Positions 20,358 to 43,901 of a stretch of 64,000 bases of DNA are shown in pieces. Numbering within the stretch: the first letter of the stretch is position 1; every line of letters starts with the position of its first letter. The translations under genes and the position numbers were made by a program. The stretch is taken from the NCBI GenBank assembly GCA_015039365.1, contig WION01000008.1:124001-188000 (forward strand), given 5' to 3'. The notes under the pieces were generated by a model, which made no database searches, was not told the DNA's origin, and saw only the letters and a list, made by a program, of their open reading frames with translations. This DNA comes from Amanita rubescens (Eukaryota > Basidiomycota > Agaricomycetes > Agaricales > Amanitaceae).

Positions 20358-20393
20358 TGCGCGTCAACATATTAGATAAGCACTTTTACTCTC
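20234..20393 (+). repeat. 5' portion of Gypsy B 3' LTR
   Basis: A purine run GTGGGGGAGGG ends at 20233 and is followed by TGTAACGGGTGCCC, the expected polypurine-tract/LTR junction. The segment has a TGTATATACAA TATA-like element at about 20294. It stops at ACTCTC (20393), where the inverted repeat of the 23.5-kb element starts. Confidence 0.75.
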
Positions 20394-20487
20394 TACATCA
20401 GCTAACATGTCAAAAGTCTGATGCCATCTGATGCTTCATCAGATGGAATCATTGTACCAGTTCACAAGCCTAATAGACCAGCAGCAG
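20394..20487 (+). repeat. Left 94-bp terminal inverted repeat
   Basis: Starts TACATCAGCTAACATG and ends about AATAGACCAGCAGCAG. It aligns without gaps to the reverse complement of 43808-43901 with 84 of 94 positions equal by manual count. Confidence 0.8.
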
Positions 20488-20829
20488 AATTCATGTTAAA
20501 AGGGTAGCCTATAATCATTAACCCAGACAAACATAGGCTCAGTTGACACATGATAGTTGAATAGGTTGCAAATGGGAATGAGAGAAATTTTAACCAATAG
20601 TAATATAGATAGCCCATCACATCCAGTCAACAAGTGTTGCTGGAAATATAGATGATCAGGTTGATATATGTTGTACCCAATAGCATTGCAGACTTATTAA
20701 TATAATCATATGGTTAGGAAACCAGAGACAAAGTCCATAGTATAAAGTTAGACAACCAAACTATTTGGACAACTTGATACTAGATAGTCAGGTAAAAGAA
20801 GCACCTGACAGTCAAGCCACTTGGAGAAC
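20488..20829. other. No gene; unique-looking AT-rich sequence
   Basis: This lies between the left terminal repeat and the CAGACAGTC array. No open frame, inverted repeat or tandem unit stood out. Confidence 0.4.
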
Positions 20830-21760
20830 AGACAATCAGACTGTCAGATGTGAATGAGCAAATACCAGTGAGACGACTATGCTATTGGATATACAGACAG
20901 TCAATTATCAATACAGTCAGATCATTAGAGAGTCAGACCATCAGACAGGTAGCAAAACAGGACATCAACTAGTCAGTCAGATCAGACATTTAGACTATCA
21001 GATACTAGTAGCTGGACAATGTATCAGATATAGACTAGTCAGACAGCCAGACAGCCAGATAGATAACTGGACAGAGCATCAGACAGTCAGACAGCCAGAT
21101 AGTCAGACAGATAACTAGACAGAGCATCAGACTGTCAGACAGCTAGACAGTCAGACAGGGTAGCTGGACAGATTATCAGACAGTCAGCAAGCCAGAGCAT
21201 CAGACAGGTAACTAGACAGAGCATCAGATGGTCAGACAGCTAAACAGTCAGCAAGTCAGACAAGGTAGTTAGACAGAATATCAGTCAGTAAGACAGCTAG
21301 ACAGATAGCTAGACAATGCCTCAGACAATCAGGTGGCCAGAGAGTCAGACACATAGGTAGAGAGAGCATCAGACAACTAGAAGTCACAAAAGGTAGCTAG
21401 ACAGAGTATCAAGCATCAGACTGTCAGACTGTCAGACAGTTATACAGCCAACTAGACAGATTATCAGACAAGGTAACTAGGCAGATTGTCAGACTGTCAG
21501 ACAGTTAAATGGCCAACTAGACATATTGGCAGACAGTCAGAAGGTATCAGACAGCTAGATAGTCAGGCAAGGTAGCTAGGCAGACTGTCAGATTGTCAGA
21601 CAGTCACAAGGCATCAGACAACTAGATAGTCAGACAAGGTAGCTAGTCAGACAAGGTAGCTAGACAGTGTATCAGTCAGTCAGATGGTCAGATAGATAGA
21701 CAACCAACTAGACAGAGTATCAGATAGGCAGAGAGTCAAACAAGGTACTTAGACAGATAA
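20830..21760. repeat. Left subterminal CAGACAGTC array
   Basis: About 900 bp built from variants of TCAGACAGTCAGACAG, with longer mixed units containing ACTAGACAGAGCATCAGAC. The units are irregular, unlike a CRISPR array. The same word in reverse complement forms the right subterminal array. Confidence 0.85.
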
Positions 21761-21949
21761 TCAAACTCTTAGACCACCAGGCATGAAGCCAGCCAGCTTA
21801 CCTGACATTAGGACTATCAATCCTTCAGACATTAAAATAGTTAAATCATGCATAGTCATTAGTTTATCACAAAAACTACAGATACAAGGTGTAGAAGACA
21901 ATAACAATGAATGTGAACAATGGCAACAATGAGAACAAAGATGGGCGAG

Positions 21950-22097
21950 AACGACGACACCGATGACAACAACAACCACCAATGACGAGGACCAATGACG
22001 ACAACGAGGAGGACCAATGACAATGACGACAACAACAATGATGACGACAACGACAACGACAACGACGAAGACGACGATGACAACAACGATGACGACG

Positions 22098-22131
<34 letters not shown>

Positions 22132-22245
22132 CGACAACGACGATGATGACAACGACAACGACAACGACGATGATGACAACGACGACGACAACAACGACGA
22201 TGATAACGACGACGACGATGACAACAACGGTGAGAACGAAGAAGG
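21950..22245. repeat. GAC/AAC/GAT trinucleotide tract
   Basis: An imperfect trinucleotide microsatellite with the pattern GAY/AAC. It produces open frames of poly-Asp/Asn, poly-Thr and poly-Val in several phases on both strands. None looks like a gene. Confidence 0.9.
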
Positions 22246-22319
22246 GCAACGATGAGAATGAAGGGCGTAAACAATGACAAGGGGAGGAGAATAAAGTATA
22301 ACGCACTTGTCAGGTCCTT

Positions 22320-22930
22320 TTATACTTGTTGACGCTCCAACGATGGGAAAGTTACGAAATGGATTACGAACTCCAATCGCCGCAGACCCTTAGCGTGTGA
22401 CCAAGCTAAATGCGATAGCCCAACTGCGAACAGAACCACTTCATTTGTTCGCACTGAGTCTGGCGCATCATTAGCGGCTGTAACAGGCCATACTATACAC
22501 ATCCTCAACATGACAGGAGGACGCAGGAAGTAAACGCTGAAGCCTGAGGTTCACATTAGTACGGAATTGCCACGACAATTCAACTGCGACCCTGCTTGCC
22601 CTGAGCTAAATTTGGTAGCACCATCCCGGCTCTTGACTCGTCGGCGTACCTCATTTGTTTCTGCGCGCTTCCTAACTGTGACCGGTGACCGGCCCATATA
22701 CACATCCCCAACACGACTGAAGGACGAAAGGGAGTGAATCCTGAGGCCTAAGAGGCATTATGGAATCACTCACCAAGACGACCCTTTGGCTCGCCCTGAG
22801 CTAAATTGATTGCTCCGAATAGCTCCGAGCTGGCACTAGAAATCTATACTTAGCGTACGCCGATCACAGCGCGCGTTCCGACGGGTCAATACACACAGGG
22901 AATACGACGGGAGGGAGTAGTAACGTGGGA
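22320..22930. repeat. Diverged direct repeats of about 200 bp
   Basis: Blocks recur in the order: a cytosine-rich CGCACTG/GCGCGC part, ATACACATCCxCAACA, a GGACGAAAGGGAGT-like block, CCTGAGG, then GCCCTGAGCTAAAT. Full units start near 22440 and 22650, and a partial one near 22870. Identity is low to moderate. No gene is seen here. Confidence 0.6.
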
Positions 22931-23193
22931 TCTAGGAAGTAGATGTTAGAGTACTATAAACGAAAGAGCGTGGTACACGACGAATAAGTACAGGGGCAGG
23001 AAGAGGTGGTTAAATAACATAACATACGCGATCGGCGATTGCATACGACGCGTCACTCTTGTTGGCAAGAAAAATAGTCATGAACACGTCGCTAACGATA
23101 CAATATGTACGTAAGTAAGTCTGGAACACGGTATCAAGAAAAAAGGATGTAGTAGGGATTTGCCGTCCGTCGGCGGCGTCGAGAATTTCATTT

Positions 23194-23606
23194 AGTAGAA
23201 GTCTTCAACGTCTCTCATCTCGACGTCCTCATCAGCCGCTCCAATTTCGACGTCTTCATCAGTCGCTCTCATTTCATTATCTTCTTCTCCCAGTTCAACC
23301 TCTGCAGCGTCACCGCCTCCCATCTCGACGTCCTCGTCGGCCGCTCCCATTTCGACGTCTCCTTCAGCCGCTCTCGCTTCGTTGTTTTCGTCTGCTTCTC
23401 CCATTTCAACCTCTGCAACGTCACCCATTTCGTCACCTTCAACGTCACCCATTTCAATGTCTTCCTCTCTGACCGCCGCAACTATGGCTTCACCGATATC
23501 GACGATTGCTGCGAAGTTGCCGAGCGTTACTAAATCCGCTCCTCCAACGGGTTTAACAAAAGCTACGACATTGATCTGGACGACGGTATCGCGGATAACG
23601 ACACTT
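23194..23606 (-). CDS. Acidic-tailed hypothetical protein
   Basis: An open minus-strand frame without a clear start reads through hydrophobic VVQINVVAFVKPVGG and LGNFAAIVDIGEAIVAAV into a long tail of repeated EDVEMG-type hexamers, ending ...VEDFY at 23194. The first Met in the frame is at 23452. The alternation of a folded-looking segment with an acidic repeat tail suggests a real protein, but the upstream exon is not found and I recognise no family. Confidence 0.4.
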
Positions 23607-23689
23607 TAAATCATCGATTATTCAACAGTAGTCATGATATTCTAAACGACTTATGGAACGCGTATTTCAGCCATTGGAAGAGATGATAA

Positions 23690-24235
23690 TAGCGTGCGTG
23701 GATTAGCGAAATTGATGAGATGGGTCCGCACTGAATCGATGGGTGCCAGATATGGATAACGGGTCGCGAGAGAAAGGACGAGGACGAATTTATAGAGGTG
23801 CGGTTTTGCTTGTAGTAAAATCCTGCTATTAAATGAGATAGACGGCGGGGAGAAGGTGGGGGTAAATGTGAAGGGGTGGGTGGTTGGGGTTAAAGAAGAG
23901 AGGCCGTACAAACAAGAGCGCGCAAGGTGACAATTTAAAGGGTACTTGCAGACGCGACCGCGCAAGACCAAATAGCGTGGGTTAGCGAGATGACGAGATC
24001 AACCGTATTGTGAAGGAAAGGATGAGTGCGAATTTAGAGGTGCGGTCTGGCTTGTAGAAGTAAAATGCTGCTATCTAAATGAGATAGGCGGCGCGAGAGA
24101 ACAATTAGATAACTTACTGGAGTCCCGAGAGAAGGTGGCTGTGTGGGAAGAGGAGAGTGGTAGGTGTTGAAGGAAAGAGAGTCGTACAAACAAGCGCGTG
24201 CAAGATGACAGTTTAAACGCATATAGCTGTAGTTA
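23690..24235. repeat. Tandem duplication of about 275 bp, diverged
   Basis: The first copy is about 23690-23950 and the second about 23970-24230. Shared blocks in order are TAGCGTG-GGTTAGCGA, ATTTA-AGAGGTGCGGT, GGCTTGTAG-AAGTAAAAT, AAATGAGATAGGCGGCG, AGAAGGTGG and CGTACAAACAAG. The second copy has a roughly 20-bp insertion after the GAGATAG block. Confidence 0.7.
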
Positions 24236-24949
24236 CATTGTAAGCCTGTTCATTGACTCGGTTATCGCGTTATTGGCTTGCTGAGAAGTAAAAAACATAC
24301 TGACGTCAAAGTGTTTAAGTGAACTAGAGCGTCAACGAGGTTTTTGCGTAGTCTATAATGATTTTACATTTTCTGCAATAGATATCTCGCATCTTGCTAA
24401 TTTGCTGACCTCCGTGGTACTTATAAGATAATGTACCTCTACATAAAAAACAGTTGCGGAACTGAGTTAGTAGCGATGTAGCCGTATAGAACAAACGCGT
24501 TCGGCATCTGTAAAACCAATATTTAAAACAAAGAACGCACACGATGTTTCGACGTCACAGAAGTTAAAAATAGATGCGCACCAAAATAGCTCCCCCGCCA
24601 TTAAGTGCATCAAGATCGATCACCCGTTAATTCAGCCAAGGCAAGTTCCGTCCAATGGTCTGAAGAGAGTAGCAGGTCATGTAGAGAATTCACATGTCTT
24701 GGGCTTACCTTCCTCATAAAATAATACGCATCATTTCCCGCACCCGGTCCCTCGCGATGCGTGCAAACCCGCTCGCCTCCCACTCGACTGCTTTAGTGGT
24801 ACGCTGCCCACCTTCCCTGATTTGTTTCAGTCCAAGCCTGTGATCAGTTACAAACAAGATTGTGGTATTGTATTAGTAGTTTCAATTTTCTACTACAATG
24901 TATGCGTGTAAGTAATAATAAAGATAATTAATATAGTGGGTCCAGCCCT
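24236..24949. other. No recognisable feature
   Basis: The sequence is AT-rich with short frames only. The right part (from about 24880) would be the 3' flank of the KOW/Spt5-like gene read on the minus strand. Confidence 0.4.
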
Positions 24950-27900
24950 CTATCTTGGATCACACCTAGCCAATCTGTTCGGCTCCATGATGCATGATGG
25001 TGGCCCCGAAAAACCTGGACGGCCCAGTGGAAAAGAGCCATCCGGTTTGGGCTTCCGCGTCATGTAGACCTCCCCGATCCTGTCGCCACTAAGAACAACC
25101 ACCTCTTGCCCCCTTGCTGTCGGCCTCTGGGGGAACAGGAACTTCGCGGGTATATTTACTGATCGGTCCTTCACGTGGACCTCTATCTTATCCTCTCGTT
25201 CTCCTGACAGAATAAGAACCCTTTGGCCTTCGTATTGACCTTTCCCAAAACCTCCCCCTTCCATGGGATTTGGCTTGCTATTGCGGACGTGGGCATAGAT
25301 GCGCTTCCTCACTAGTCCATGTCTTAATATCCAGTTGGCGGGAAGTACTATCGGTAGGGCATCAGAGCGGGGTAACCTGACCACAGAAGACATACCTTCA
25401 TCCCCGTAAGTGATCATTGGCGTCTCTGTTGCTGGCGTAGACGCCTCTGGAGCGTCTGGCAGTCCTTCGGCGGCTGCGGATGGCGATGATATCGGTCGGT
25501 CTTCGGGGTTGTTTTCGGCTACATCTACTTCTTCAGGAAGGGGTGTAGCGGCTCGCTTGGGTTGACTCGGTTGCCGCTGAAAGCAGGGTATTGGGTATGC
25601 CCCAGCCGGAGGTATCTTGTGCAGACCTATGTGATAATCCCGTAGGTCTGGACCATTCTCTCCCCTGTAACAAATAAGTATATTTTGAATGAACGCGCCT
25701 GGATGACTCACGTATTTATCAGGTGGTCAACATGTATGTCCACCCATCGACTTCCGGAGCTCGCTTCGACACGAAACTGGCAGTTTCCGTGGTATTCTTT
25801 TATCCTTCCATATAAACCTTTATGTACGTGTGGTCCAGTTACGACGACCCACGTCCCGACGAGTTTCTTGTAGTTATCGTCATCCCATCGACCTAATAAA
25901 TTGGCTATCGCGGAGGGGGGTTGTACCGTAGGGCCAGGGACCGTATCTGCTTTCAGAAACCACGGTGGCACCATGAACTACCACAATATACATCGTCAGT
26001 GCTTTGGCCGGCTAAAGTAATTAACATACCAGTGTATTTGTCCTACTATCGATCACCTCGATGACAGAGTCCGATACACTGTAGATGCTACCGTTTTTCC
26101 TATACTCCGCTGACAAGGGATCAACCACATGCACCGCCTCGCCGACTTTAAACCGGGGATCCTGTTCCATTTCAAAATCGTCATAAGGGATGAGTTGCCA
26201 TGATTTCACGTCAAACTGTTATAGATTTAATATTTGCTCGGCACGGATGTGGAGTTCATACCTGTTGCTTTTGATCCCGGTCGAATACTGTAATTTGATC
26301 ATCCTGGATCCCGATCACCCAGCCTCGCCGATTGATCATCGACGACCTAACGACCTTGACTGAATCGCAGAGCTGATAAAACCTTCTGACGGATCGGATA
26401 TCGACTTCCAACTCCTCTCTTGTCTTGATCGTGCGCACGAACGCTTTATCAAAGCGCATGTCCTCTATAACACCTTGGGCAATCCCCATATCTAATTTGA
26501 CCTCAACCTTGTTGCCAATTTCGACAGGAGCGGCCACATCATTCTCGTACGTCCACCTGAAGAACTCGGTATGTGGAAAATTCAAACCCATTTCCTTCGC
26601 TCCGACGGCCATTCCTTCCGCGAACAAGTTCAATTCTTTGAGTCTGGGCACCACGTCTGACTGTAATGCACTGACAGGTACATAGAATATCGCGAAAGGC
26701 GGGACTAAATCGTCCCCGTCTCTTGTTCTCTTCCGGGTTTTTGGATTTGTCAACTGATACACGCCAGTCTTGATAGACACAAGGTCATAGAAGCGTTTGG
26801 GATTCCACCACACGCTCGAATGCAAAGGATGCATTGTTTCTGAGCCCAGAGTCGGTTCAGAGATCGTATTGGGATGTAAAAGTCGCGGTAATCGTTGCCT
26901 TCTCCTCTTCTTCTGTTTATCCCGATAGTCGGCGGAACCCTGCTGCCCTACCTCAACTAATAGCCGCGGGACTAGACAGATCAGGACCTTTGACTCGTTG
27001 AAAACCTCATGCACGAAAGCGAGGTCCTTGGCGTATTTTAGAAGTCTCTCGTCGAGATCGTGGTCCTTGTCTAGCAAATCCCTGAGCTCTGAGCTCTTCT
27101 TTATCCGGACCCAAGACGGGGACTTGATGCGTGGCGTAGTTGGACACCAAGTGATCCATTGTACACGTTCGTTCACAGGTACGAACAATACGTTGGGAGG
27201 TTGATGGATAGTGGACAAGTCTATGCATAATAAAACCGCGTTTTGGTGTGAAGATGATTCAATGCATATCCAATTATCACTTCGCGGTGGCATAAAGACA
27301 GACGACGCTAACTCTGGGCTTTTGTCCAAACGGTTGTGCATCGCCCAGAAAGTCTCTTCTACCGTCCCCTCCTTTATATCCCGTGTCCCATTGTCAAATG
27401 TTTGACGGCAAGAAAGGGAAGACCAGACTCACATATACGCAAACTTTCCAAAAATTGGGATCCTGTGCTGTGGGCATTATTCGCATGGCACGTTCAGCCA
27501 ACGAAGCGAGCTCGTCTTGCCTGTCGTGGCCTTCACCCTCTGATGCCTGAGCTTCGTATCGACGAACAACGCTCGCCAGACGATAATCCAATCCCACCGG
27601 TTCCGAATCATTGGGACCTCGTCTCGTGCTGGTATCAAACCTCTGACCGGCTGTCATACAGTTAGTTAATTCAAGTAGCAAAGCTTGAAATGGCAACCTA
27701 CATTCATCGTCAAAGTCTAGGTCATCCTCGCTGAACTCTTCATCCTCAACTTCGATGTCCTGACCGCCACCCAAGTTCACTTCATCATCATCAATAAAGT
27801 TCAGACCTTTCATCTTAAGTCAGTTTTGCTTTCGTCAGTTTTGTCCCTTTCGGCTTACATTCATTCGTATGTCCTTCCATTTCTTCGTCGCTCGAATCAC

Positions 27901-27960
27901 TGACTGAGGCTTCAACGTCCAAGAATTCATTCGGTGCGACCTACAGATAGTGAATCTAAT
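24950..27960 (-). CDS. Spt5-like KOW-domain protein, multi-exon
   Basis: Exons in order: about 27960-27860 (NEFLDVEASVSDSSDEEMEG), 27813-27420, about 27360-26262, 26209-26030, 25974-25712 and 25670-24950. The acidic start with FLDVEA-S and the following DPNFWKV segment resemble the N-terminus and NGN entry of Spt5, the universal transcription elongation factor. The later exons hold several short beta-rich blocks with G-x-V-x-D patterns, such as GNKVEVKLDMGIAQGVIED, GTWVVVTGPHVHKGLYGRI and GQEVVVLSGDRIGEV, which are KOW-like. It is too divergent to be the housekeeping Spt5. A paralogue carried by the transposon is my inference. Confidence 0.55.
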
Positions 27961-28603
27961 CAAAGTGGTCATGACGCCTTAAGATCGACACTATACCTTT
28001 TTTCTTTTCTTTCTTTTCTTTCTGCCTTCATTTTCCGATATACGAACACGTTTTCCTCGCTACCAACTATGCTTTGAGCTCATTCTAGCACAAAAGTCTA
28101 TCTTCTTACCGACGCGTCCATGCTTGGCGTGTTATCTTAGGTTATTATAATTATAATAATAATTAGAACTACTATGAGAAAGTCAATCAGCAAAAGTGCA
28201 GCTCGCATCGTCTTTCCGTTCTCTCTTCCGTTCAAAGAGATTTCATTCAAATGATCGAACTTACGAAGCACTAAAAAGCTACAACGTCTACTTTAACGAA
28301 GGATGCACGCGATGCTAGCAAGAGTCGTTTTGGACTCCGCGCCGCGGTTATGTACCCCGCGTCCTTCTGTTGTACCCGTGCGAGTGTTTGACCTCTAACT
28401 CGCGCAAAGACAAGGAGGGCTGGTATTTAGCACCGCACAAAGCCCTCGGAGCTTTCTTTCGCCCCCTTCATCCCGCAAGGGGGGGGGACTATGCGCGACT
28501 TAACGATAGAATGCAATCAATATCATCATATCTTTTTATTCAAAGCATAGTGTCTATGTTATAAGTCTATAAGTCTATGTATCCCTTCCTAGCAACGGTA
28601 CGA
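27961..28603. other. Intergenic, no gene seen
   Basis: Contains a CTTTTCTTTC run near 28000 that would be the promoter side of the Spt5-like gene, and a GC-rich inverted pair CCCCCTT/AAGGGGG near 28465. No supported gene. Confidence 0.4.
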
Positions 28604-29367
28604 TTAGGCACTGGGGCGCTTTTTTCCGTTCCCATCGACGGTGACGTTGATGGTGGACTTGTACCCAAAGACGTGAAGATGAAGCTGATAAGGTAGGTGT
28701 CAATTCACTGGTTTGGAGCAATTTGACTCATACATACCTCAGGCTCGCCCGCCGTGGCTGAAGGCCTTTTTTTCTTGGTCTTTGTGTTCGTCTTTTTGCG
28801 TTGATAATACCTCGAGAGACGTTGGTGCAGTCTGTTACCTTGGGGTAAGGCAGGTAAGTCAAATCACTCATGTATTTGCTTCATTGATAACTTACGGCGG
28901 TTATGCTGCAGCATGGCCGGATCATCCAATATCTCAACCTCCGGTGAAGGTGATTTGCGAGGGGCAGAACCATTCCCAGCCACATTCTCAGAGACGACTA
29001 GTGCATCTACATCCGATTCCGTGTCGGAACTCAGTGAAATAACACTCTGTACCTCCGCGTCTTGGGACGGAGCTGGAGCTGAAAAACGTAGTAGCGTTAA
29101 ACAGGGATCATTTGCCACTGAAAACGAAATGCTTACTATCCCATGGCCGTGGGTTTCTCGGGGGTGGGCTGGTCCAATGGAACGACTGGCTTTCGCTTTC
29201 GGGGCTCGAGTTCGAGCTGGCGTCAAGTCCAACAGACCCGGGGTTGGAATGAGTGGGGACACGGGATGATGCCCCCGGTCCTCTCGGACTTGTCTGTTCT
29301 TCCAAAAGAGAAAGCGTGTAAGGAGGCATAGCGATGGAGGACGAAGTGGTTTGGAGGACAAAGTCAC
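28604..29367 (-). CDS. Unrecognised small acidic/basic protein, three exons
   Basis: The main exon is 29367-28900. It ends in a Ser/Asp-rich stretch with VISLSSDTESDVD and PSPEVEILDDP, which look like SUMO-interaction-type hydrophobic-acidic motifs. A second exon (about 28830-28738) is basic, RKKTNTKTKKKRPS. A third (about 28692-28604) reads YQLHLHVFGYKSTINVTV and then stops. Splice sites fit GT-AG. The N-terminal part is ambiguous because two overlapping frames are open there. No known family was recognised. Confidence 0.4.
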
Positions 29368-29723
29368 TATCGGTATATATACTTCTCTATCACTGGCGCA
29401 GAATTAATATAATGTCGGATATACAGCTCCCGAGAATTGAAGATGGTCTGACAATTTGTGCCACGTCCTTGGAAACGGTATTCTAAGCGTACGTCATCTG
29501 CTGTGGTACCCACCATGAATTCTCGCACCATATCAAGTAACCGGCGCCAAGCGCTTGAGCCGTTTCTAATATCGCCCGTGTTTTTTTTTCACTAGCTTAT
29601 CTTGTACGGCAGGGATCGGTGCTAAAGATGTGTTTACGGTATTGATGACGGTTCCCTGGATAGCAAATATGGGTTCATGCGTTAGGGCTAGCTCAGTGGT
29701 AAGTTCGAGTTTCTTTTGACTGC

Positions 29724-32789: not shown

Positions 32790-33160
32790 AATGGTATGAT
32801 AGCGAGTCAGTAGGTAATGAACTTAATACTATACTATTCGTTTTTGTCTGGTGCCCGATTAAAGTCATAAACAAACGGACTGTTCAAATTACTACCCAGC
32901 CCAAGCAGGCGCAAACTCTCACTACATACTATCATTCTCGTCATCACCTCTTTCACTGGTGCTCCGACTTTGCAAAACAACTTGAACTTTGGTCCCATCT
33001 CAGCTTCGTCTTAATCAAGATCTTTGCTACTTGTTCTGCTCAATCGCCTGGTTCGCCACTCTAAAAGTAACGGTCGCTTACTAACCTGCCTTGCAAAGAG
33101 CTTGACCCGCACTCAACGACGGACGCTGGTCACTCTCGCCAAATAGACCTTCGAGTGAAT
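32790..33160. other. No recognisable feature
   Basis: This is the 3' flank of the preceding gene and the approach to the kinase relic. No open frame of note. Confidence 0.35.
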
Positions 33161-33164
33161 GGGA

Positions 33165-33645
33165 AATATTTCTGGATCAGAAGATCGGTTCAAGGGGCGG
33201 TTTGGTGCGTTTTCTCTCCAGTTGATCTCCATGATACTTATGACATCCCATCTTAGGTGATATCTATTATCTACCCCGGCACCAACACGAGAGGAAGTCG
33301 CCGTCAGTCTCGAATCAGTCAAGTATGAATCAACGGTTTACAAGACCCTCGCCGGCAGGGCAGGCATACCTCTCCTTTCGTTCGATGGCATGGGACCACA
33401 GAAGGCGATTATAACGCCCTGGTTTTGGAACGCCTAGGCAGGCTCTCTTCAACTTTTGCAACTGTAAGTTCAGCCTGAAGATTGTTTTATTACTACTTGC
33501 AGATCAACTGGTATGTAAATCCTCGCTTAAATTTTTCATGTCGACTCATTCTACCATCGCTAGATTTCTCGTACTATTGAATATATCCACTCTCGAAAAT
33601 TTATTCACCGCGACTACGAATGACGTCATCGAGCATCGCTTTTCC
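33165..33645 (+). pseudogene. Casein kinase 1 relic
   Basis: Pieces of a fungal CK1-type Ser/Thr kinase lie in order but in different frames. GKYFWIRR is the start of the lobe and GDIYYLP the glycine-loop end. REEVAVSLESVKYESTVYKT has Ser in place of the ATP-binding Lys and lacks the usual AKHPQLE linker. LAGRAGIPLLSFDG follows, then EGDYNALVLERLGRL, then RTIEYIHSRKFIHRD, where the catalytic loop sequence is followed by YE, not IKPDN. Frame changes and the missing lysine show it is dead. The remainder of the kinase could not be followed beyond about 33645. Confidence 0.75.
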
Positions 33646-34765
33646 AACTCCTAGATTGGGTTAGGGTTCCGCTTGCTGTCTCAAAAAGCATCCGTCCTTC
33701 ATCTGTGAGCACATCGCTCGTAGTAACCAGCATGTCAAAATTGGCCGACAGACAAACGCAAAGACGAAACCTGCTCCTTTGACTCAAAAGTTCTAGTGCA
33801 CAGAAGCGTGGGAGGAAGGCGGGGAGGTGCGCCTATCTTCTCTTCTCGTAGTAGGAGGGACTGTTTCTGACTCTACGTGCAGATCCCATCGGGTACATCA
33901 AAGTCCCAAACAGGACCTTCATCAACAATGAATAGCTAAGTCCAGCGGGTGTCGAGCCAGATCCATTCGCACTCAAAAGCGACGACATCATCGTAAGTCA
34001 ACGCTACCCATGAAAAATTATATCACACGCATGCAACGCGGCCCTTTTTTCTTTACCAGGAGTGCTGCGAAGGCGAAGGAGCTGGAAGAGAAGGAGAAGA
34101 ACACGACATCTATGAAACCAACCGCGTATCACCCAGTACGATGATGTCGACTAGCTCGGCAGAAAATCCAACATCCTCGGGCTCGGGCTGCCCTCGGGGA
34201 GGGTCATCCCCTGTCTTGGCCGCACAACCGAACTCTAGCCGGTAGTCGAGAGTGGTATCGTTCCAGCGCCGTCCGTTATTCTTTCACTGGCCGAATCCCA
34301 AGTCTGAAGAAGAGTATGGACCCTGTTCATCTTCTCAAAGGATAAGACAGCTCCTTCCCAGCCCCATCCTCGTCTCAATTCGAATTTAAGTGCAAAATGA
34401 CGGAGCAGAAGTTCTGACAGGTCTATGTCGGTCATTCGAGACAATCTTTTGGGTTGGGCTTTGCCCATTTCAGCCCTTTTGAAGAAGTCCGACGCGGTTG
34501 GGAGTTTGGCGGGCCTAAACGTATTTTACTTCCCCTCCATCTTCCACAGACGTGAAGGTGAACAATCAACAGCGAGAGTCTATCCTCATCATCCTCTCTA
34601 TCTCGTCTTACTGCGGCAGAGTCATCAATCGGGGCTTAGTCGATCCTTTTGATTTTTCCTTGCGTAGTCTCCAATTCCGAGGATATCTCATCGGCAACGT
34701 CTTCATTTAGCGTTGACGATACTTTTTCCTTCATGCACCGCCAGTCAAGGCATCTCAACTTACTT
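33646..34765. other. No supported gene
   Basis: Short frames on both strands, including a 77-codon minus frame at 34235-34468, have no recognisable content. Stretches such as GIIVPNRTF-like fragments near 33900 suggest further decayed coding sequence, but I cannot name it. Confidence 0.35.
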
Positions 34766-34769
34766 TCAG

Positions 34770-35068
34770 TCACGAACTACAAAAAACCAAAGACGATGAC
34801 GCTTCGAGGAAGCCAAGAAGCAACTTTGACGATAATGATGCTCGGAGTGTGGTGGCTGTTACTGTTGAGGAACTCGAACGTATTGATGAGGAAGACAAAG
34901 GTCGTCTCGAGCGGAAGAACCAGGGCAGGGGGCAGTGGAGATCAAGGACCAGGATGCTAAAACTGAACAGAAGCTTCGACGACGAGAAGAGCTTGGCAGG
35001 CCGAGAACGCCCAAACCAACGATGGGCATGCACGCTGCCACGCTGAACGGTTCCCCGTCCCATCGATC
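34770..35068 (+). pseudogene. Partial copy I of the coiled-coil gene
   Basis: It joins the exon-1 words GAACTACAAAAAACCAAAG directly to the region encoding DDASRKPRSNFD, TVEELERIDEED and RPRTPKPTMGM. In the larger copy at 35679-37743 these are about 500 bp apart. It is therefore an internally deleted copy, with frame damage near 34915 where a GGGCAGGGGGCAG insertion interrupts the acidic stretch. Confidence 0.75.
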
Positions 35069-35084
35069 CTATTACCAGTACAGA

Positions 35085-35240
35085 TGATGATGACGCTCGG
35101 AGCGTGGCGACCGTTACCGTTGGGGAACTCGAACGTATTGATGAGGGAGACAAAGACCGTCTCGAGCAGGAGGACCAGCATCATCTCGAGGTGGAGATCC
35201 AGGACCAGGATATTGAAACTGAAGAAGAGAAGCATCGATG
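35085..35240 (+). pseudogene. Partial copy II of the coiled-coil gene
   Basis: Carries the DDDDARSVATVTVGELERID block and the ETEEEKHR block again, with a GAGGTG insertion relative to the other copies, immediately behind copy I. It ends at GACGAGAGAGC; what follows is unrelated. Confidence 0.75.
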
Positions 35241-35678
35241 ACGAGAGAGCTAGGTCTGACCGGTGTAACGAGCCGATTCCGGCTACATTGGAACCGATCT
35301 CCGAAACCTTCCGAAGCTCCCCGAAGCACTCCGAGCCTATGCTCGATCCCGGAGGATGATCGTTTGTGTTCGGACGCATGCACAGGCCTCGGACTCGGCA
35401 CAGGATTCATCACATGGTCACCTCGTGCCTCCGTAGTATATATACCATTGTGTACATAGTTGTAGTTAGCGAATTATTACCCCAGCTTCGTTCCGAGTTC
35501 GATTCCTTCCATTCCCTTCGTTCCTCGGTGCTTCGGACACCTTCCACTCGTTCACCTTCATCTTCGGCACCCTCTCTGCACCCGAGACTCCCTTCGGACT
35601 GACCTCCGTAGTCCCTTTGGCCGAACGCACTTCCGCATCGGCCTTCTTCTGATCGTTTCACCGGTATGGTATGGTGGC

Positions 35679-37743
35679 ATGGGCGGCAACATTCGCCCGC
35701 CCGGCAAGAGCGGCCTTTCGTTTGAACTCATTTTCAGCCGGCTTCAAGGCGAACTACAAAAAACCAAAGATACGGGCGCGGAATTACAAAATTTGACGAG
35801 TTCGCTGGGTGAAATCCAAGATACGCTAGGCGGTGCTCTGGTAAGCTTAGGTCTATTCAATCCGCGAATTCTACGTTGACGCGAGCGCGTTTAGCCGCAG
35901 AATATGCCTCCGCCTTACGCACTCCCTTCCGTCTGTCCAGCTCAGTCATCGCTTGCGGCAACGGAGTCATCTGCGTCCATTTCCTCAATCACTTCACCGG
36001 AGGTTCCTCCCCAGTCCCAACCTGCTGTCCCATCGGAAACCTTATTGGAGATCCAAACCCGGTTGCAGGACACTCAAACTTCGCTCGCTTCCCGCGTCGA
36101 TAAGATCCGTGCCTTGGAGACCATCCTAACCGAACAGGAGGCACTTAAGCGGGAGACGCGTGTCTTGCGTGATATGATGGAGTCTCGCGAATGTGATTTA
36201 CTTCTTTCTACTGCGCAGCATGCACAGGAGGCAGACAGGAAGGAGGATGATCACGCTTCGAGGAAGCCACGAAGTAATTTTGGTGACGATGATGAGGACG
36301 ATGACGATGACGCTAGGAGCATCGCGACCGTTACCGTTGGGGAACTCGAACGTATTGATGAGGAAGACGAAGACCGTCTCGAGCAGGAGGACCAGCACCT
36401 TCTCGAGGAGATCCAGGACTAAGATATTGAAACTGAAGAAGAGAAGCATCGACGACGAGAAGAGATTGGCAGGCCGAGAACGCCCGAACCAACGATGGCC
36501 ATGCACGCTGTTATGCTGAACGGCTCCTCCTCCCATCGATCCCTATCGCCAACGCCAAAGGAAAGGACAATTCCCGCGCCCGTCGACACCAGCGAGATCT
36601 CTGAGCAACTTTCGGTCTTATCAGAGCAAGTCCGCGCTGTGCTGGCAGTCAAGTCCGCACTAGAAGCGCAGCATATTACCGCTCAGGCCACGATCCAGGT
36701 TCTCGAGAAGAAAGTCGATACACTCGTGGCTATCGTCAAATCTACTCAAGAACAAGTTCCAGCCCTCCACCACCCATCCAACTCTCCCTCAACGAGCCCA
36801 AAGAGTCTCACCGAGATTCTATGGAAAAAGTCTGTTCAAGGATCTGTCCAGGAAGAATGGCCAGGAACGCGAGCGGCTCAACCGTGCTCGGGAAGAATTC
36901 GAGGCCGAAGCGCGCCAAGGGCTCGAGAAGATATCAGTCCTCGAGTCGACGGTCAACGCTGTGCAACAGACCCAGACGTCCCACGGGCATCAGCTGACGA
37001 CGCTACAGACGTGGATGACTCGGATTCATGAAGGTATTACCGGCTGGTTTCAGCCGAACGGGGAGCACATCAGGCACGATATAAGTAGCGGGTTGGTGAC
37101 ACTGCCGAGTCCGCCTAGGAGCCGGTCGTCGGATTCGGCGAGGTACAGGAGGAGGCGAAAGTCGGCTGGAACGAAGATTGTGAACGCAGGCGCGGATGAA
37201 TTTCCGTCAAGGGAGAGTTCACCCGCATCTTCCCCCGTCCGAGGAGGATCAAGAAGTCGTTCGCGAGAGAGGCGAGCGATGAAGAAAATGGACGCGACGC
37301 TTGCCAATGACGACAATTATCCACTTTCTCGTCATGTCCATGAACGTGCGGAGCAGAAGTTGGTAGCGTTGTTGAAGCGAGCAGAGGAAGACGAGGAAGA
37401 CGACCAGCAGATGCTGGCCCTCGCTGGGGAGATCAAGGAATATGTTCATATCATCAACCCTGAAAAGTCGTTGGCGACGCCAGATTCGCCTGTCGTCGAC
37501 CGGCTATCGTTATCGGGGTCCGTTACTTCGTCCGTCGAACAGGACGACGTCGAAAGCGAAGTACGGAAGAAAGGAGTCGAGCATGAACCAGTGCGTATAA
37601 AGCTCTATTGCGGAACATCCTCACTGACGAACGTTGTCTTAGGTTCCAATTATCACGGTCAAAGCAGTCGGTGTGCTCGTACTAAGCGTAGCAGCCGCTG
37701 CCGTGATATGGCGGGTAAAACCCGAATAAATCAACTTTCTTGA
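35679..37743 (+). pseudogene. Coiled-coil protein with C-terminal membrane anchor, apparently disrupted
   Basis: Exon 1 (35679-35840) begins MGGNIRPPGKSGLSFELI and continues LQGELQKTKDTGAELQNLTS. After an intron, NMPPPYALPSV opens a long frame with coiled coils (LQDTQTSLASRVDKIRALE) and an acidic block. An in-frame TAA at 36420 replaces the CAG seen in copies I and II. The frame then resumes (SEQVRAVLAVKSALEAQ) and shifts by one base near 36810 into NGQERERLNRAREEFEAEA. A last intron at about 37592-37641 leads to the tail VGVLVLSVAAAAVIWRV, one membrane span, and a stop near 37707. The exon-1 and coiled-coil pattern looks like a conserved basidiomycete protein whose name I do not know. With a stop and a frameshift this copy is probably a pseudogene. 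Confidence 0.6.
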
Positions 37744-38054
37744 CTTTTTTTCTCGTTTCACGGTCATATTTTATGCATAGAACTTAATTCCAGCATTCTC
37801 ACCTAACACCACCCTCGTTGTGTCCCCCTCTCGGTATTGGTCTTCAAGTGTCGACGTCTAATGTCTATGCCCCCCTCCCCCTCGTTTTTTTTTCTGTGTA
37901 TTTATCGCTGCCTTAGGCTGTGTTCGCGATTCGCGTTCTAGCTAACGAATTTTGTATTTATTCCTTTCCGCTAAATTAACGAAGTGACATGTCCATGAGA
38001 CTACTACTACCTAAGTAGTTGATCACACGAGGCGGATGCGAGGTGTGGGCTCCG
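37744..38054. other. Spacer, partly duplicated downstream
   Basis: This is the 3' flank of the coiled-coil gene. The segment 37796-37890 (TCTCGGTATTGGTCTTCAAG) is repeated at about 38403-38500. No gene is present. Confidence 0.5.
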
Positions 38055-38500
38055 TGAGGCCGAAGCGCGCCAAGGGCTCGAGAAGATATCAGTCCCCGAG
38101 TCGACGGTCAACGCTGTGCAACAGACCCAGAGTCCCAGACGTCCCACGGGCATCAGCTGACGACGCTACAGACGTGGATGACTCGGATTCATGAAGGTAC
38201 CACCGGCGGGTTTCAGCAGCACACGAATGGGGAGCACATCAGGCACGATATGAGTAGCGGGTTGGTAACACCGCCGAGTCCGCCTAAGAGCCGGTCGTCG
38301 GATTCGGCGAGGTACAGGAGGAGACGAAAGTCGGCTGGAACGAAGATTGTGAACGCGGGCGCGGATGAATTTTCGTTGAGGGAGAGTTCACCCGCATTTC
38401 CAGATTTTCACCTAACCCACTCTCGTTGCGTCCCCCTCTCGGTATTGGTCTTCAAGTGTCAACGTCTAGTAGTAATGTCTAGTATGCCTTCGTTTTTTTC
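38055..38500 (+). pseudogene. Partial copy IV of the coiled-coil gene 3' part
   Basis: 38055-38400 repeats 36893-37230 with few changes (GAGGCCGAAGCGCGCCAAGG through GGCGCGGATGAATTT). It adds a duplicated AGTCCCAGACG and a CAGCACACGAA insertion. It then jumps to a copy of the downstream spacer, so about 560 bp of the parent are deleted. Only a 124-codon frame remains. Confidence 0.8.
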
Positions 38501-38562
38501 TGCCATGCATTTGAACCAACTTTCTCCTGACTTTTTCTCGTTCATGTTGTAGAGACGAGGCT

Positions 38563-38645
38563 CATGGTGGTTCACGTGCGCCATGCTGGATCACGACGGG
38601 CCACAGTGGGTCACGGTGATTCACGACGGTTCACGGTGATCGGGC
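38563..38645. repeat. GGTTCACGGTGATTCACGACG word cluster
   Basis: About seven iterations of TTCACGGTGA/TTCACGACGG-type 10-11-bp words lie at the switch from GC-rich cargo to AT-rich Plavaka DNA. They may be the subterminal end of a transposon. I did not find the partner on the other side. Confidence 0.5.
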
Positions 38646-39121
38646 TATGTATCTGGGTTTTTTCCAATATGGACCATCATACTATATCAGTTTCAATGCA
38701 ACTAGTATACTGTATGCCAATGTCTAATGTCTACATGATGCCCCCCATGTTTTTTCTGTGAATCTGAGCTGGTACTATGAGCATTGACCAGCTTACTAAT
38801 AGTAAGCTGTGCTGAGGAATTGATCACTGGTGGGATCATAACACTGCACCGGGAACTTGGACATCATCAGGTGTATCACAGCACTGTGGGAACATTCCCT
38901 TTCCTTGTACTTAAATAGTGTCCGTTTTGATGATACTGTTTGTTCTCCCCCCAAATCTCTTTTCCACACACCAGTGCACTGGTGCTCATCCTCAGGTTGC
39001 CCCTTTGTTCTTAGTACTACCAGTAGTACTACTAACCACTTGCATCCAACTCTACATCATGTAAGCCCTTGGTGAATGGCTTTGAAATCAAAGATTTATT
39101 TAACTTTCTTTCTCAAGACAG
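38646..39121. promoter_or_regulatory. Probable 5' region of the Plavaka gene
   Basis: AT-rich and gene-free. From 39061 a GTAAGCCC...CTCAAGACAG segment ends directly before the ATG at 39122, fitting a 5'-UTR intron. A CTTAAATAG element near 38915 could serve as a TATA-like signal. Confidence 0.4.
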
Positions 39122-42100
39122 ATGGCAACTCCTAGTACTACTATGACAACCCAGAAAATTACCCACAAGTATTATTGCTCCAATGCAGCCACTGATGCAT
39201 GCAGGGTTGGCTTTGGCAGCCTATCTGCATATAGTAAGCACAAGAAGAGTGTGCACACTGCTCCAAAGCAACTGGGTAGGTCTAAGCAAGATGTTCAAGG
39301 TGCATACTTCCAAAAGCACCCTGTGATAGATGGTGTGGCATAGAGTACTACTACTACTGCATGATTCATTATTTCTAATTTATTGCTTGCAGGCTCCCCT
39401 TGTCCACCCCCACCTAGTACTAATACTACTACTAGTACCAGTGGACATCCAGCTTCAACATGGGCACCTTTTGAAAATAGGGCTCAATTTGAGCTAGCAG
39501 AGTTTCTTTATAAACATAATCAAATGCCTGGTGGCAACATTGATAAACTCATGCAGATATGGGCTGCTTTACATCCAAATGAAGGAAGCCCATTCAATTC
39601 ACATGATGGATTATATGAGATGATAGATTCCATTAAGGATGGTGATGTACGCTGGGAATCATTTGCTATGCATCATCCTGATGCTGGTGACTTGGATGTC
39701 ACTCCATCTGATAATCTACTCTCAAGTTGGAAGAGGCAGACCTATGAAGTTTGGTATAGAGACCCTAAAAAGGTCCTGCAAGCTCAACTGTCAAATCCAA
39801 ATTTTAAAGATGGAATTGACTATGCACCAAAACTGGTGTATAATGATAAAAATGAAAGGGTATGGAAGGATTTTATGTCAGGCAACTGGGCATGGAAGCA
39901 ATGTGTAAGCTGATGCATAGTATTAACTGGTTTCTTATGGTAGTGATCACATTTGTCTCAGAATATCCTGTCTGAAGACCCAGAGTGTCATGGGGCAATG
40001 TTTATCCCAATAATTCTGGGCAGTGATAAAACAACAGTCTCTGTTGCCACAGGACAACATGATTACTACCCAATCTACATCTCAAATGGAAATGTTCACA
40101 ATCACATACGTGGTCAACACAATGGTGCTGTCAGCTTGCTAGGCTTTCTCCCTGTGCCAAAAGGTGTGTAATGGAGATTCTCTTGCTCAGCATTGGTGTA
40201 AAACTACAATAAGGAACTCGTGAAGATCAGAAATCTCAGGCATTCCGCACATTCCGCCGGAAGCTTCTTCATTCAGCAATAGCAGAAATATTCAAAGGTC
40301 TTAAATCTGCTATGGAGAAGCCAGAGGTAATTAAATGTGCAGATGGAAAATACAGACGTGCTATCTATGGATTTGGTCCATATATTGCTGACTATCCAGA
40401 GCAGTGCATTGTAGCCTGCAATGTTCAAGGATGGTGTCCTATGTATGTAATATATTCAGTTTAATTTATGGGTTCACTTTGTTGGTTGACATGCATTACT
40501 ACAGTTGCTTGGCACATAGAGATAATTTAGATGGAGAAGGAAAGGAGCTTTTAAGGTCTCAGAAACTCAATGACTGGTGCAGACAAGGACTTTCCAATAG
40601 CAGTGCTTGGGAAGAATGGGGCATGGTTAATAATGTACTGGTATGGCAAAGTCCAACTTCCTGAACACCATCATCATTATGACATCACATTGTGCATCTA
40701 GCCTTTTACATCTGCATTCCCAAGAGCAGATATACATGAGCTTATAGCACCTGATTTGCTCCATCAGGTTATCAAAGGCACTTTCAAGGATCATCTGGTG
40801 ACTTGGGTTGAAAAGTATATTACAAAAGAACATGGTCCTTCATATGGGAAAGTGATGATGGATGAAATTGATCGAAGGTGATGATATACCAATTCTACTA
40901 CTATCAAGGGAAATTTTATTGTGCTAACTTTCATTTTAAATATTCATGGGAATAGGATTGCTGCAGTCCCACCCTTTGTTGGCCAGAGAAAATTTTCTAA
41001 AGGGAGAAACTTTAAGCAGTGGACAGGTAATGATACAAAGGCTTTGATGAAGGTCAATTTGTTCTTGAATTGATAAACTAGTATTAACCTACAACTTGGC
41101 TAATCTAATCTTAAAAAGGTATTCTTACCAGCTATTGTTGGCCTGGTCCCAGCAAAAATGGTCAAAGCCATTTCAGCATTCTTGGATTTTTGCTATATTG
41201 TTAGACAGCCCTCTTTGAATGAGGCTGATCTCAAAGCTCTTGATGATGCCTTGGAAAGGTTTTGCAGGCACCGTGATATATTTGTCACAACTGGCATCTG
41301 CCCTGATGGGATATCCTTGCCTCGTCAACATTCACTTCAGCATTATCATAGGCACATTGTGCAATTTGGTGCCCCTGAAGGACTATCTACATCAATTACT
41401 GAATCAAAACATATTGATGCTGTCAAGAAACCTTGGAGACGAACCAATCACTTTGAAGAACTTAAACAAATGCTTTTGATAAATCAGAGAATGGACAAGC
41501 TTGCTGCTTTTCATGCACGGCTCTTTGGAGAAGGTCTTTTGGATGTACCACTTGTGCCAGAGGGCACTGAAGCCATTGCAATGGATTCAGATTCAGGTGA
41601 CAGTGGGCCAGACAGTGATAACTTCTCAGAATTTGAGTTGGTGAATAGCACTGGCAGTACTAGTACTAGGAATGCTCAGGAACTAGATCATCATGCCAGG
41701 GAAGGTTTTGAGCTTCATAAATTGGCAGGCACAGATGAAAGTGTAGAAGCAGTTATAATTCTCCCAGAGAGGCCAGGTGAGCATGGAAGTTTGTTGGAAT
41801 CAATAACAAAGTTTTACCAACTCATCTTATGTCAATAGCAGCAAATATTGGGAGATATGCTAACAGGATTGCTAAGGACCTCTCCATCCCAATGTTTCCT
41901 CATTTATTAAAAGAGTTCATCAATAATCAAGAAGATGAGGATACACCAACTTCTGACACTCGTCCATTTTATGGAAAAGTTCATGTGTACTCTTCTGGAA
42001 CATGTGTATACAATGCACAGCATGACTCAAGTGGCAGAATTGTGAGATCAACACAGCAGGTTATACATTGTACAAGGTCATGGAAAAAAGGCCCAGCTCG

Positions 42101-42497
42101 TCATGACTGTGTTTTTGTCAATATTGATCCAGAAGCCCCTGGCTTTAGAGGCCTTTATGTTGGGCAAGTTTTGCTTCTATTTTCCCTGAAATCTCCACGT
42201 GGTTCTAGGGACCCAAATACACCTTGTGCTCTGGTTCAATGGTTTGAAACAGTTGGTAACCAACCTTGTGGCCTTACTGGAATGTGGATGGTAAAGCCAG
42301 AAGTTGATCAGAGGAATAAACAGCGTGCAATGTCTGTCATTCATGCAGACAGCATAATACGACCAGCACATCTCATTCCTATTTATGGTGAACACCATGT
42401 CCCTCATCATCTTCATGCTGCACATTCCTTGGATGCATTTAAAGGCTATTATGTAAACAAGTTTTCAGATTATCATGCATATCGCCTAGCCTTCTAG
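39122..42497 (+). CDS. Plavaka-family transposase, multi-exon
   Basis: This is the transposase of a fungal Plavaka element, related to CACTA (EnSpm/CMC). Exon 1 (39122 to about 39285) has a zinc-finger-like stretch, KYYCSN-CRVGFGSLSAY. After an intron, 39393-39905 gives APFENRAQFELAEFLYKH, YEVWYRDPKKVL and FMSGNWAWKQ. 39955-40165 gives PIILGSDKTTVSVATGQ. 40210-40440 gives FRTFRRKLLHSAIAEIF and GFGPYIADYPEQ followed by GWCP. 40505-40640 and 40700-40880 give DWCRQGL, FPRADIHELIAPDLLHQ and IKGTFKDHLVTWVE. 41110 onward gives MVKAISAFLDFCYIVRQP, SLQHYHRHIVQFGAPEG and ESKHIDAVKKPWRRT. The final frame 41829-42497 continues after a shift or intron near 41825. All known family blocks are present in order, and no certain inactivating stop was seen. 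Confidence 0.88.
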
Positions 42498-42769
42498 TAG
42501 TAGTAGCAAGACTTGGTGAAACAAGATTGCAATGATAGCACTAGTAGTACCTGGAGTAACTAGTAGTACTAGTAGTACTAGTAGTATTTATCCACTGTCA
42601 CTTTTCTGTCTTCTTGAACTTGATGTGCCAGCATCATTACTATGTACAACAATGCTACTTAGTAATTTCAATGAAAATTGCAAAATGATATTAATCTATC
42701 ACTGCCATAGTAAGAACTTGAAGCATGCCACCTAGTCTGTGATGTGATTTGGCTGAATGTTTGACCATC
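42498..42769. repeat. AGTAGTACT-rich 3' flank of Plavaka gene
   Basis: Contains CTAGTAGTACTAGTAGT runs (about 42540-42590). Similar TAGTACTAC words occur in the 5' flank and inside the gene (39010, 39345, 39410). No gene is present. Confidence 0.55.
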
Positions 42770-43640
42770 TGGTGGATACTAGTACACAAATTGTCTGACA
42801 GTCTGACAGTCTGAGAGCTGCTGCTAAATAAGCCACCTGATTAGCTGGTTGTCTGATTGCCCAAGAGGTACTGACACACTGATTGTCTAACAGTCTGATT
42901 GTCTGACAGATGGCTGACATACCAATTGTCTGACTGTCTGACTGTCTGAAGGACACTATCCCATAAGTTGTCTGACTGTCTGACTATCTGAGAGGCACTG
43001 TCACATAAGCTCTCTGACTGTCTGAAGGGCACTATCCCATAAGTTGTCTGACTGTCTGACTGTCTGACTGTCTGACTATCTGGGAGGCACTGTTGTATAA
43101 GTTGTCTGACTGTCTGACTATCTGAGAGGCACTGTCACATAAGCTCTCTGACTGTCTGAAGGGCACTATCCCATAAGTTGTCTGACTGTCTGACTGTCTG
43201 ACTGTCTGACTATCTGGGAGGCACTGTTGTATAAGTTGTCTGACTGTCTGACTATCTGAGGGGCACTGTCACATAAGCTGTCTGACTGTCTGAGAGATAC
43301 TGTTGCATAAATTGTCTGATAGTCTGACAGTCTGACAGTCTGAAAGCTGCTGCTGAACAAGTTACCTGATTAGCTGGTTGTCTGATTGCCCAAGAGATAC
43401 TGACACACTGATTGTCTGGACAGCCTGATTGTCTGAGACACACTATTCCACAAGTTGTCTGAATATCTAACTGTCTGATTGTCTGACAGATACTGACACA
43501 CTAATTGTCTGACAGTCTGACTATCTGAGAGGCACTGTTACATAATTTGTCTGACCATCTGACTGTCTGAGGACCACTGTTGCTTAAGTTGTCTTACTGT
43601 CTGACTGTCTGAGAGAGACTGTTGCATGAGTTGTCTGATA
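42770..43640. repeat. Right subterminal TGTCTGACTGTC array with 134-bp higher-order unit
   Basis: It is built from TGTCTGACTGTCTGAC words, the reverse complement of the left array. A longer unit of 134 bp, marked by GAGAGGCACTGTCACATAAG, occurs at about 42991, 43125 and 43259, with copies almost identical. Outside these units the words are irregular. Confidence 0.85.
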
Positions 43641-43694
43641 AACTATAATTATATTTCTAATACAATCTGGATGTCAAATACTATGAAAGTCTAC

Positions 43695-43795
43695 TGCATC
43701 TGATGAATCTGGACATCTGTGCTTATGAAAGTCTAAGTGACCACATACATCTGGACATCTGTGCTTATGAAAGTCTAAGTAACCGCATGCATCTG
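43695..43795. repeat. Two 42-bp tandem copies beside the right TIR
   Basis: ATCTGGACATCTGTGCTTAT followed by GAAAGTCTAAGT occurs twice in direct order, 42 bp apart. It lies between the array and the terminal inverted repeat. Confidence 0.7.
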
Positions 43796-43807
43796 ATGCC
43801 CTGCCAG

Positions 43808-43901
43808 CTACTGCTGGCCTATTAGGCTTGTGAACAGGTATAATGATCAGATCTGATGAGGTGTCAGATGGCATCAGACTTTTGACGTGTTAGCTGATGT
43901 A
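43808..43901 (-). repeat. Right 94-bp terminal inverted repeat
   Basis: The reverse complement starts TACATCAGCTAACACG and matches 20394-20487. CTC follows at 43902-43904, the same three bases that precede the left repeat. Confidence 0.8.

Follow-up and report, generated by a model that had tools for sequence, protein, structure and literature searches.

Does a 23-kb interval bounded by inverted repeats in the basidiomycete Amanita rubescens move as one transposon, and what are the genes that it carries doing there? The interval lies in a 64,000-nucleotide stretch of DNA (C759:124001-188000, hereafter the window) and was analyzed against one A. rubescens assembly of 75.7 Mb in 786 contigs. 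An earlier note on this DNA had proposed a single unit with terminal inverted repeats (TIRs) and a Plavaka transposase, and the proposal was borne out by end-to-end copies elsewhere in the genome, by empty sites and by 2-bp duplications. With a probability of about 0.9, which covers element, unity and class jointly, positions 20396-43899 represent a single large multigene transposon of the PlavakaB type. The unit is mobile as a whole, with defined ends, 2-bp duplications and a common gene set. The features that delimit it are as follows.

20234-20395, plus strand: left part of the interrupted Gypsy-type long terminal repeat (LTR), which resumes at 43902-43975; aligned in L033, L034 and L035
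20394-20395, no strand: left copy of the target site duplication TA, a single TA in three aligned element-free LTR copies
20396-43899: whole transposon, probably PlavakaB-type, 23,504 bp, within the Gypsy-type LTR
20396-20487, plus strand: left TIR, beginning CATCAGCTAACATG
20836-21807, plus strand: left subterminal array of CAGACAGTC/CAGACTGTC-type units, a putative transposase-binding region
42731-43654, minus strand: right subterminal array, mirroring the left array
43808-43899, minus strand: right TIR, ending GCTGATG
43900-43901, no strand: right copy of the target site duplication TA
50710-55451, plus strand: uninterrupted, element-free relative of the site into which the C504 copy inserted, with a single TA at 52709-52710

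Ends, target sites and copies

In each of the three aligned LTR copies that lack the element (C173, C664 and C501), the sequence is CTCTACTCG and contains a single TA. The target duplication is the TA at the outer end of each inverted-repeat arm, hence the bounds 20396 and 43899, and the element has the termini CATCAGC...GCTGATG. CATCAGC is also the start of the sequence common to eight inspected ends of other copies of the same subfamily (subfamily 1), with the exception of CATGAGC (CATGA for CATCA) at one end of the C704 copy; because the common sequence starts there and the outer bases vary among copies, the ends are placed at CATCA..TGATG. The joined flanks of the window insertion matched the genome at 51 places, and 33 of the 51 matches cross the junction (the remaining 18 include the two halves in the window itself), so that other LTR copies, three of them aligned, continue across it. 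The earlier note was therefore right that an LTR is broken here and resumed, and empty sites of the kind that it proposed to look for exist, but the LTR resumes at 43902, not 43905, and the three aligned sites read ACTCTCTACTCGATACACG rather than ACTCTC directly into GATACACG. Likewise, CTC on both outer sides, which had been taken as the duplication, is target sequence: the empty copies keep CTC-TA-CTC, which rules it out in favor of TA. Among the seven copies with both ends known, the outer bases match in four (TA/TA in the window and in C504, TG/TG in C704 and AA/AA in C321), in agreement with the duplication of 2-3 bp that had been expected for a CACTA-like Plavaka element. A further empty site lies in the window itself, where 50710-52710 and 52709-55451 match the two flanks of the C504 copy at 97% and 93%, respectively.

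Several of the LTR matches are same-strand pairs 6-8 kb apart (e.g., C664:7004 and 14460), as expected of the two LTRs of one retrotransposon. The interrupted LTR is regarded as Gypsy-like because the adjoining open reading frame (ORF) at 16301-18013 carries Gypsy-type integrase domains, with matches to Integrase_H2C2 (1.4e-13) and Tf2-1 SH3 (1.4e-12) above cut-off and a match to rve (3.2e-5) below its cut-off.

A BLAST search of the window against retrieved contigs identified complete copies at C504:158904-193374 (34.5 kb), C222:39711-62756 (23.0 kb) and C704:74366-123557 (49.2 kb), all on contigs other than that of the window and with different flanks, as well as two truncated copies, one in C247 and one at the beginning of C504 (C504:1-11777). 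Without nested insertions, of which the C504 copy has three and the C704 copy two large ones, the complete copies measure 23,108 (the window, minus its solo LTR), 23,092, 23,046 and 23,036 bp; identity in the copies is 98.8-99.8% in blocks of at least 1 kb and 96.8% in an 840-bp block with the right array. The solo LTR, which belongs to an abundant retroelement (at least 40 genome matches among the best 40 of 321 candidates scored), is present in two of the five copies covering its position (window and C247) and absent from C504, C222 and C704. The C247 copy, with one flank in the assembly, shows no match to the window there, and the most economical reading is that a copy transposed whole with the solo LTR already in it. 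The large nested insertions lie at C504:159942-167146, C704:79508-97163 and C704:104237-112736, and the 17.7-kb one of C704 contains a KDZ transposase match (C704:95092-95457).

The copies at C222:39711-62756 and C504:1-11777 are identical over 677/677 bp of flank beyond the left end, the latter has a nested insertion missing from C222, and the outer bases of C222 are mismatched, which suggests recombination between copies or a chimeric contig. A transposon abutting the C222 element was ruled out as the source of this flank, which resembles the inside of one of the nested insertions of C704; the right flank of C222 matches none of C704, the window, C247, C557 and the other C504 stretch.

The inverted repeat and the mirror-image arrays inside both ends are present as the earlier note had described them. 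The repeat (20394-20487 and 43808-43901) is 94 nt long and 88% complementary. With up to one mismatch, TCAGACWGTCAGAC occurs 40 times in the window, compared with 0.02 expected, and a count of 40 was reached in 0 of 100 shuffles; 38 of the 40 matches are inside the element, eight at the left end, all on the plus strand (20836-21601), and 30 at the right end, all on the minus strand (42793-43612). Away from the element, 11907-11999 contains two TCAGACAGTC-type units and is similar to the subterminal array of C557, and is perhaps the remnant of a related element. A repeat at the start of the window (23-948) recurs within the C557 element (C557:26439-27353, 84%).

A genome-wide search for the end sequence identified 27 TIR matches, including a sister group (C451, C321, C557, C19 and C51) at 75-76%. 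Another group shares about 49 bp of the end; its members in C629, C359, C2 (two), C173 and C216 are 332-379 bp in length, and one end was found in C115. Short elements of 330-350 bp with the terminal 49 bp, at C629:160763-161094, C359:29450-29781, C2:362480-362811 and C173:37751-38097, are flanked by 2-bp duplications (AT, CA) and resemble miniature inverted-repeat transposable elements; those in C629, C359 and C2:362480 have common flanks and are therefore not three independent insertions.

Transposase and conserved gene set

The element belongs to the CACTA/EnSpm-like class with a DDE transposase. PlavakaB, in the portions of its description available, is defined by a PF18759 transposase, CATCA..TGATG termini, duplications of 2 or 3 bp and the residues D, D, C(2)C, H(3)H and E (Kojima, 2025, PMC12730594). 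Judged from sequence, every testable one of these features is present in the element, which shares with PlavakaB the PF18759 domain, the termini, the 2-bp duplications and the residue pattern. The features inside the TIRs and arrays are as follows.

23195-23605, minus strand: small acidic ORF with tandem repeats, 137-aa frame, no Pfam match
24950-28121, minus strand: Spt5-like gene, seven exons, 912 aa, no internal stops in the model
30178-32786, plus strand: DUF6532 gene (PF20149), conserved core at about 31650-32786, 5′ part uncertain
35264-35660, no strand: solo LTR, 396 bp, ACCGGT at both edges
35895-38552, plus strand: repeat-rich coding region, with some internal duplication and perhaps decayed, of coiled-coil type as judged by eye
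39122-42497, plus strand: Plavaka transposase gene, nine exons, 961 aa open in one splice model, a 957-aa variant also open

The transposase matches PF18759 positions 1-165 at 2.6e-51 and 167-325 at 4.2e-44 (175.2 and 151.5 bits; cut-off 26.3), the coverage from 1 to 325 falling in two frames with an intron between them. The 961-aa model contains the motifs GSDKT, ADYPEQ, CPIC, HSLQH and ITESKH. In an alignment of 12 Plavaka proteins, D237, D342, C357, H566, H570 and E590 (P0029 numbering) are invariant and C360 is at least 90% conserved, which gives the pattern of the Plavaka/CMCT clade, namely D, D and E with C(2)C and H(3-4)H between the second D and E. From the available parts of the published PlavakaB description (PMC12730594), the conserved D, D, C(2)C, H(3)H and E are read as putative catalytic residues. 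All nine exons are at least 99.1% identical in C504, C222 and C704, with no frame-breaking gap and one 3-bp gap in C704. Pfam frame scans of 22500-30002 (minus), 28000-34500 (plus), 30000-39300 (minus) and 34000-42600 (plus), which are insensitive and missed the DUF6532 domain seen in the spliced protein, gave no mobility domain other than Plavaka, tyrosine recombinase captains included, and no match to TET/JBP.

The sister copy at C557:21557-49113, whose right end occurs twice (49113 and 49648), has the order TIR, Spt5-like, DUF6532, coiled coil, Plavaka, TIR, in the same orientation as the window, and the order in C451 and C321 is TIR, Spt5-like, DUF6532, Plavaka, TIR. Because order and orientation are the same in this diverged sister subfamily, the genes represent a conserved set of the element and not random host DNA. 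The cargo of about 17 kb described earlier thus does include several non-transposase genes, but these are not mixed host genes. In comparison with the window, the DNA of C557 is 77-83% identical across the main coding blocks and 67-74% identical in the repeat regions at the ends; amino-acid identities are 69-82% in the Spt5-like exons, 63-75% in the DUF6532 core exons (36-52% in the doubtful 5′ part) and 80-95% in the Plavaka exons, except for one 52-residue piece at 62%. The ratio of nonsynonymous to synonymous substitution rates (dN/dS) for this one sequence pair, calculated by the Nei-Gojobori method, is 0.40 (0.31-0.50) for the Spt5-like gene, 0.44 (0.30-0.62) for the DUF6532 gene and 0.30 (0.24-0.39) for Plavaka, and 0 of 300 bootstraps reached 1 for each gene. 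The doubtful 5′ exons and the coiled-coil region were left out of the bootstrap because their reading frames are uncertain; dN/dS is 0.58 for the DUF6532 gene with these exons included and 0.55 for the coiled-coil region. On these ratios, all three tested genes look conserved by selection between the subfamilies.

The DUF6532 match was obtained with the spliced protein (3.7e-10), and the 5′ part of this gene contains a 125-bp tandem duplication at 31083-31332. Two tested ORFs of the coiled-coil-type region gave no Pfam match. In the Amanita brunnescens protein P0005, an Spt5-like fragment is succeeded by sequence that, by eye, resembles the small acidic ORF.

The Spt5-like gene and its origin

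The presence of an Spt5-like gene within the element, which the earlier note had recognized, is supported by profile homology. A search with a six-member family profile detects SPT5 chains of the PDB (6.6e-17), over both the N-terminal NGN part and the KOW part, as is typical of SPT5, as well as fungal SPT5 proteins, for which the E-value reaches 1.6e-26 and the identity is 20-24%. A single Spt5-like sequence gave no SPT5 chain in the PDB at an E-value of 1 or better, the element's own protein is below the Pfam cut-offs for SPT5 domains, and one of seven family proteins (P0006) passes the KOW cut-off. The GenBank model of the near-identical C247 copy has 902 aa (P0001, A. rubescens), and the window model is 96% identical to it. 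The protein resembles canonical fungal SPT5 in its acidic N-terminus and, by profile, in its NGN and KOW domains, but differs from it in its low identity and in that no C-terminal repeat domain is among its Pfam hits. Plant SPT5-like proteins carry an Argonaute-hook array, whereas the element protein has one GW and no WG in 902 aa and therefore no such array. Close relatives were found in A. rubescens, in A. brunnescens (61% identity over 55% of the query) and in two JGI fragments, a minimum list because about 8,000 candidates were scored each time.

The genome contains 53 merged Spt5-like loci, 20 DUF6532 loci and at least 64 Plavaka loci (a lower bound, with 123 of 191 candidates scored). 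Outside the eight contigs that hold these elements, the chance of a Plavaka match within 25 kb is 0.042 per locus. Such a match was found for six of 12 DUF6532 loci (binomial p 4e-6), but C13, C203 and C335, three of the six, are equally spaced and probably belong to a single family, which makes this p-value too small. For the Spt5-like loci, the figure is one of 44 (p 0.85), which leaves the idea of a general Plavaka passenger unsupported. Between the subfamilies, the main exon of the Spt5-like gene has an identity of 81%, compared with 50% or less for every other listed locus, as fits one gain. By these comparisons, DUF6532 looks like an old partner of Plavaka and the Spt5-like gene like a later, lineage-specific acquisition. 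The most likely origin of the latter is a single gain, in the common ancestor of both subfamilies, out of a broader Amanita family of Spt5-like genes.

The 44 other Spt5-like loci fall into several subfamilies (e.g., C277:38000-40720, C79, C153, C49 and C42). A KDZ scan compared with these loci by eye gave no consistent neighbor. Around the copy in C277, element ends are unreadable, since C277 and C282 agree over all 11.5 kb compared (99.97%). No Pfam domain was detected on either strand of C277:32001-42000, a weak result in that the Spt5-like gene there was also missed, and a 1.2-kb probe 4-5 kb from that gene had a full match in C282 and, among the best 40 of 57 candidates, none in C49, C42, C135, C35 and C318 of the same subfamily. 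The equally spaced DUF6532 and Plavaka matches, about 3.9 kb apart (C13:90474/94384, C203:984/4893 and C335:35403/39312), probably represent another multigene Plavaka family. The contigs C77, C640 and C535 also combine Plavaka with DUF6532 and gave no Spt5-like match.

Alternative accounts, known systems and meaning

The short relatives of 330-380 bp with a similar 49-bp end raise the idea that two shorter Plavaka-type elements lie near each other with ordinary genome between them. This is extremely improbable: the whole interval recurs end to end elsewhere with different flanks and the same core length, and the element-free LTR copies are continuous across the junction, which together rule out two separate short elements. 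Spread of the block by segmental duplication, rather than by transposition, would explain why C222 and the start of C504 share their flank, as copies duplicated with it or as two assemblies of one place. It would also accommodate observations that weigh against a transposon, namely outer bases that differ in three of the seven copies (TA/TG in C222, TA/AA in C451 and AA/CT in C557), although recombination between copies or assembly errors would explain these as well. However, the exact 2-bp duplications in the window, C504, C704 and C321, homology that ends at the TIR and the three aligned target relatives with a single TA make segmental duplication very unlikely. A Starship-like giant element moving variable, host-beneficial genes is about as improbable, in spite of the size and the several non-transposase genes, because the gene set is constant between the subfamilies, the mobility gene found encodes a DDE transposase and the insensitive Pfam frame scans gave no metabolic or resistance domain. 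The parallel to giant cargo elements drawn in the earlier note is consequently very unlikely to hold.

A single transposon thus remains the preferred reading, and its movement can be outlined. CACTA-type elements carry subterminal transposase-binding repeats. From membership in this family, we infer that the transposase would recognize the CATCA..TGATG ends and bind the mirror-image arrays, and that the 23-kb unit would be cut out and pasted into a 2-bp target (TA, TG or AA). Plant CACTA and Pack-type elements capture genes, and there is a substantial chance, although below even odds, that the Spt5-like gene is a captured host gene carried passively. This would fit the position of the other Spt5-like loci, only one of 44 being within 25 kb of a Plavaka match, and the state of the gene in the copies, which counts against an essential role: the main exon is open in five of nine copies (window, C247, C557, C451 and C321) and in just two of the six of the window's subfamily; of the four broken copies, that in C704 has lost the reading frame, and the other three, C222 and the two in C504, have a TGA in common at residue 368 of the 390-residue ORF. 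The occurrence of the same TGA at more than one site indicates movement of copies whose gene is truncated, whether in the absence of the protein or with help in trans from open copies. Against passive carriage stand the dN/dS of 0.40 between the subfamilies, which is close to the 0.30 of the transposase, and the position, strand and most splice sites, which are kept in C557.

Tentatively, the Spt5-like protein, with its acidic N-terminus, NGN and KOW domains, could instead join RNA polymerase II and aid the element's own transcription. The analogy that favors this role is with the TET/JBP genes that other fungal transposons carry and that, in the available parts of the source, are thought to counter silencing (PMC12730594). 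A more specific proposal, that the SPT5 paralogue serves as the element's own polymerase II elongation factor through long or silenced units and acts in trans for broken copies, is doubtful; the broken main exons and the TGA at more than one site lowered its standing and raised that of passive carriage. RfaH is a specialized NusG paralogue, and under that proposal the protein would be the eukaryotic counterpart of such paralogues, used in place of the TET/JBP genes found in other Plavaka families.

Some PlavakaB families carry a TET/JBP dioxygenase as an accessory gene, according to the parts available (Kojima, 2025, PMC12730594), whereas the present element is about 23 kb long, with four or five genes, among them one Spt5-like and one DUF6532 gene. 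In the red alga Chondrus crispus, enlarged En/Spm (CACTA) families reach 16-20 kb and hold 4-5 ORFs (cited in PMC6431247); both are large CACTA-type elements with several ORFs, likened here by size and ORF count alone, in different hosts. Size alone is thus not categorically new. Large basidiomycete elements have also been catalogued before, since a transposable element library of Marasmius oreades reaches about 42 kb, with the class unstated in the part available (PMC9674265). Starships, described from Pezizomycotina (PMC12134995) and also reported in the basidiomycete Tremella fuciformis (PMC13066641), are likewise large fungal elements with extra genes; as far as these sources were available, they differ in having a tyrosine-recombinase captain and many accessory genes, in contrast to the DDE transposase and constant gene set found here. 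No Spt5-bearing or 20-kb-class Plavaka element was found in the literature searched, mostly outside subscription journals and in excerpt. Within that literature, the combination of size, conserved accessory gene set and Spt5 paralogue appears to be new, and an Spt5 relative is an unusual passenger for a cut-and-paste transposon.

These observations indicate that a DDE transposon of mushroom-forming fungi moves a 23-kb multigene unit intact and repeatedly, and that a paralogue of a core transcription factor joins the list of transposon-carried genes. Multicopy Spt5-like and DUF6532 genes in Amanita can accordingly be transposon genes, which should be considered in annotation. If the Spt5-like protein does act on the element's transcription, it would provide a second, testable answer to the question of how fungal transposons resist silencing, which has so far been posed mainly for DNA demethylation.

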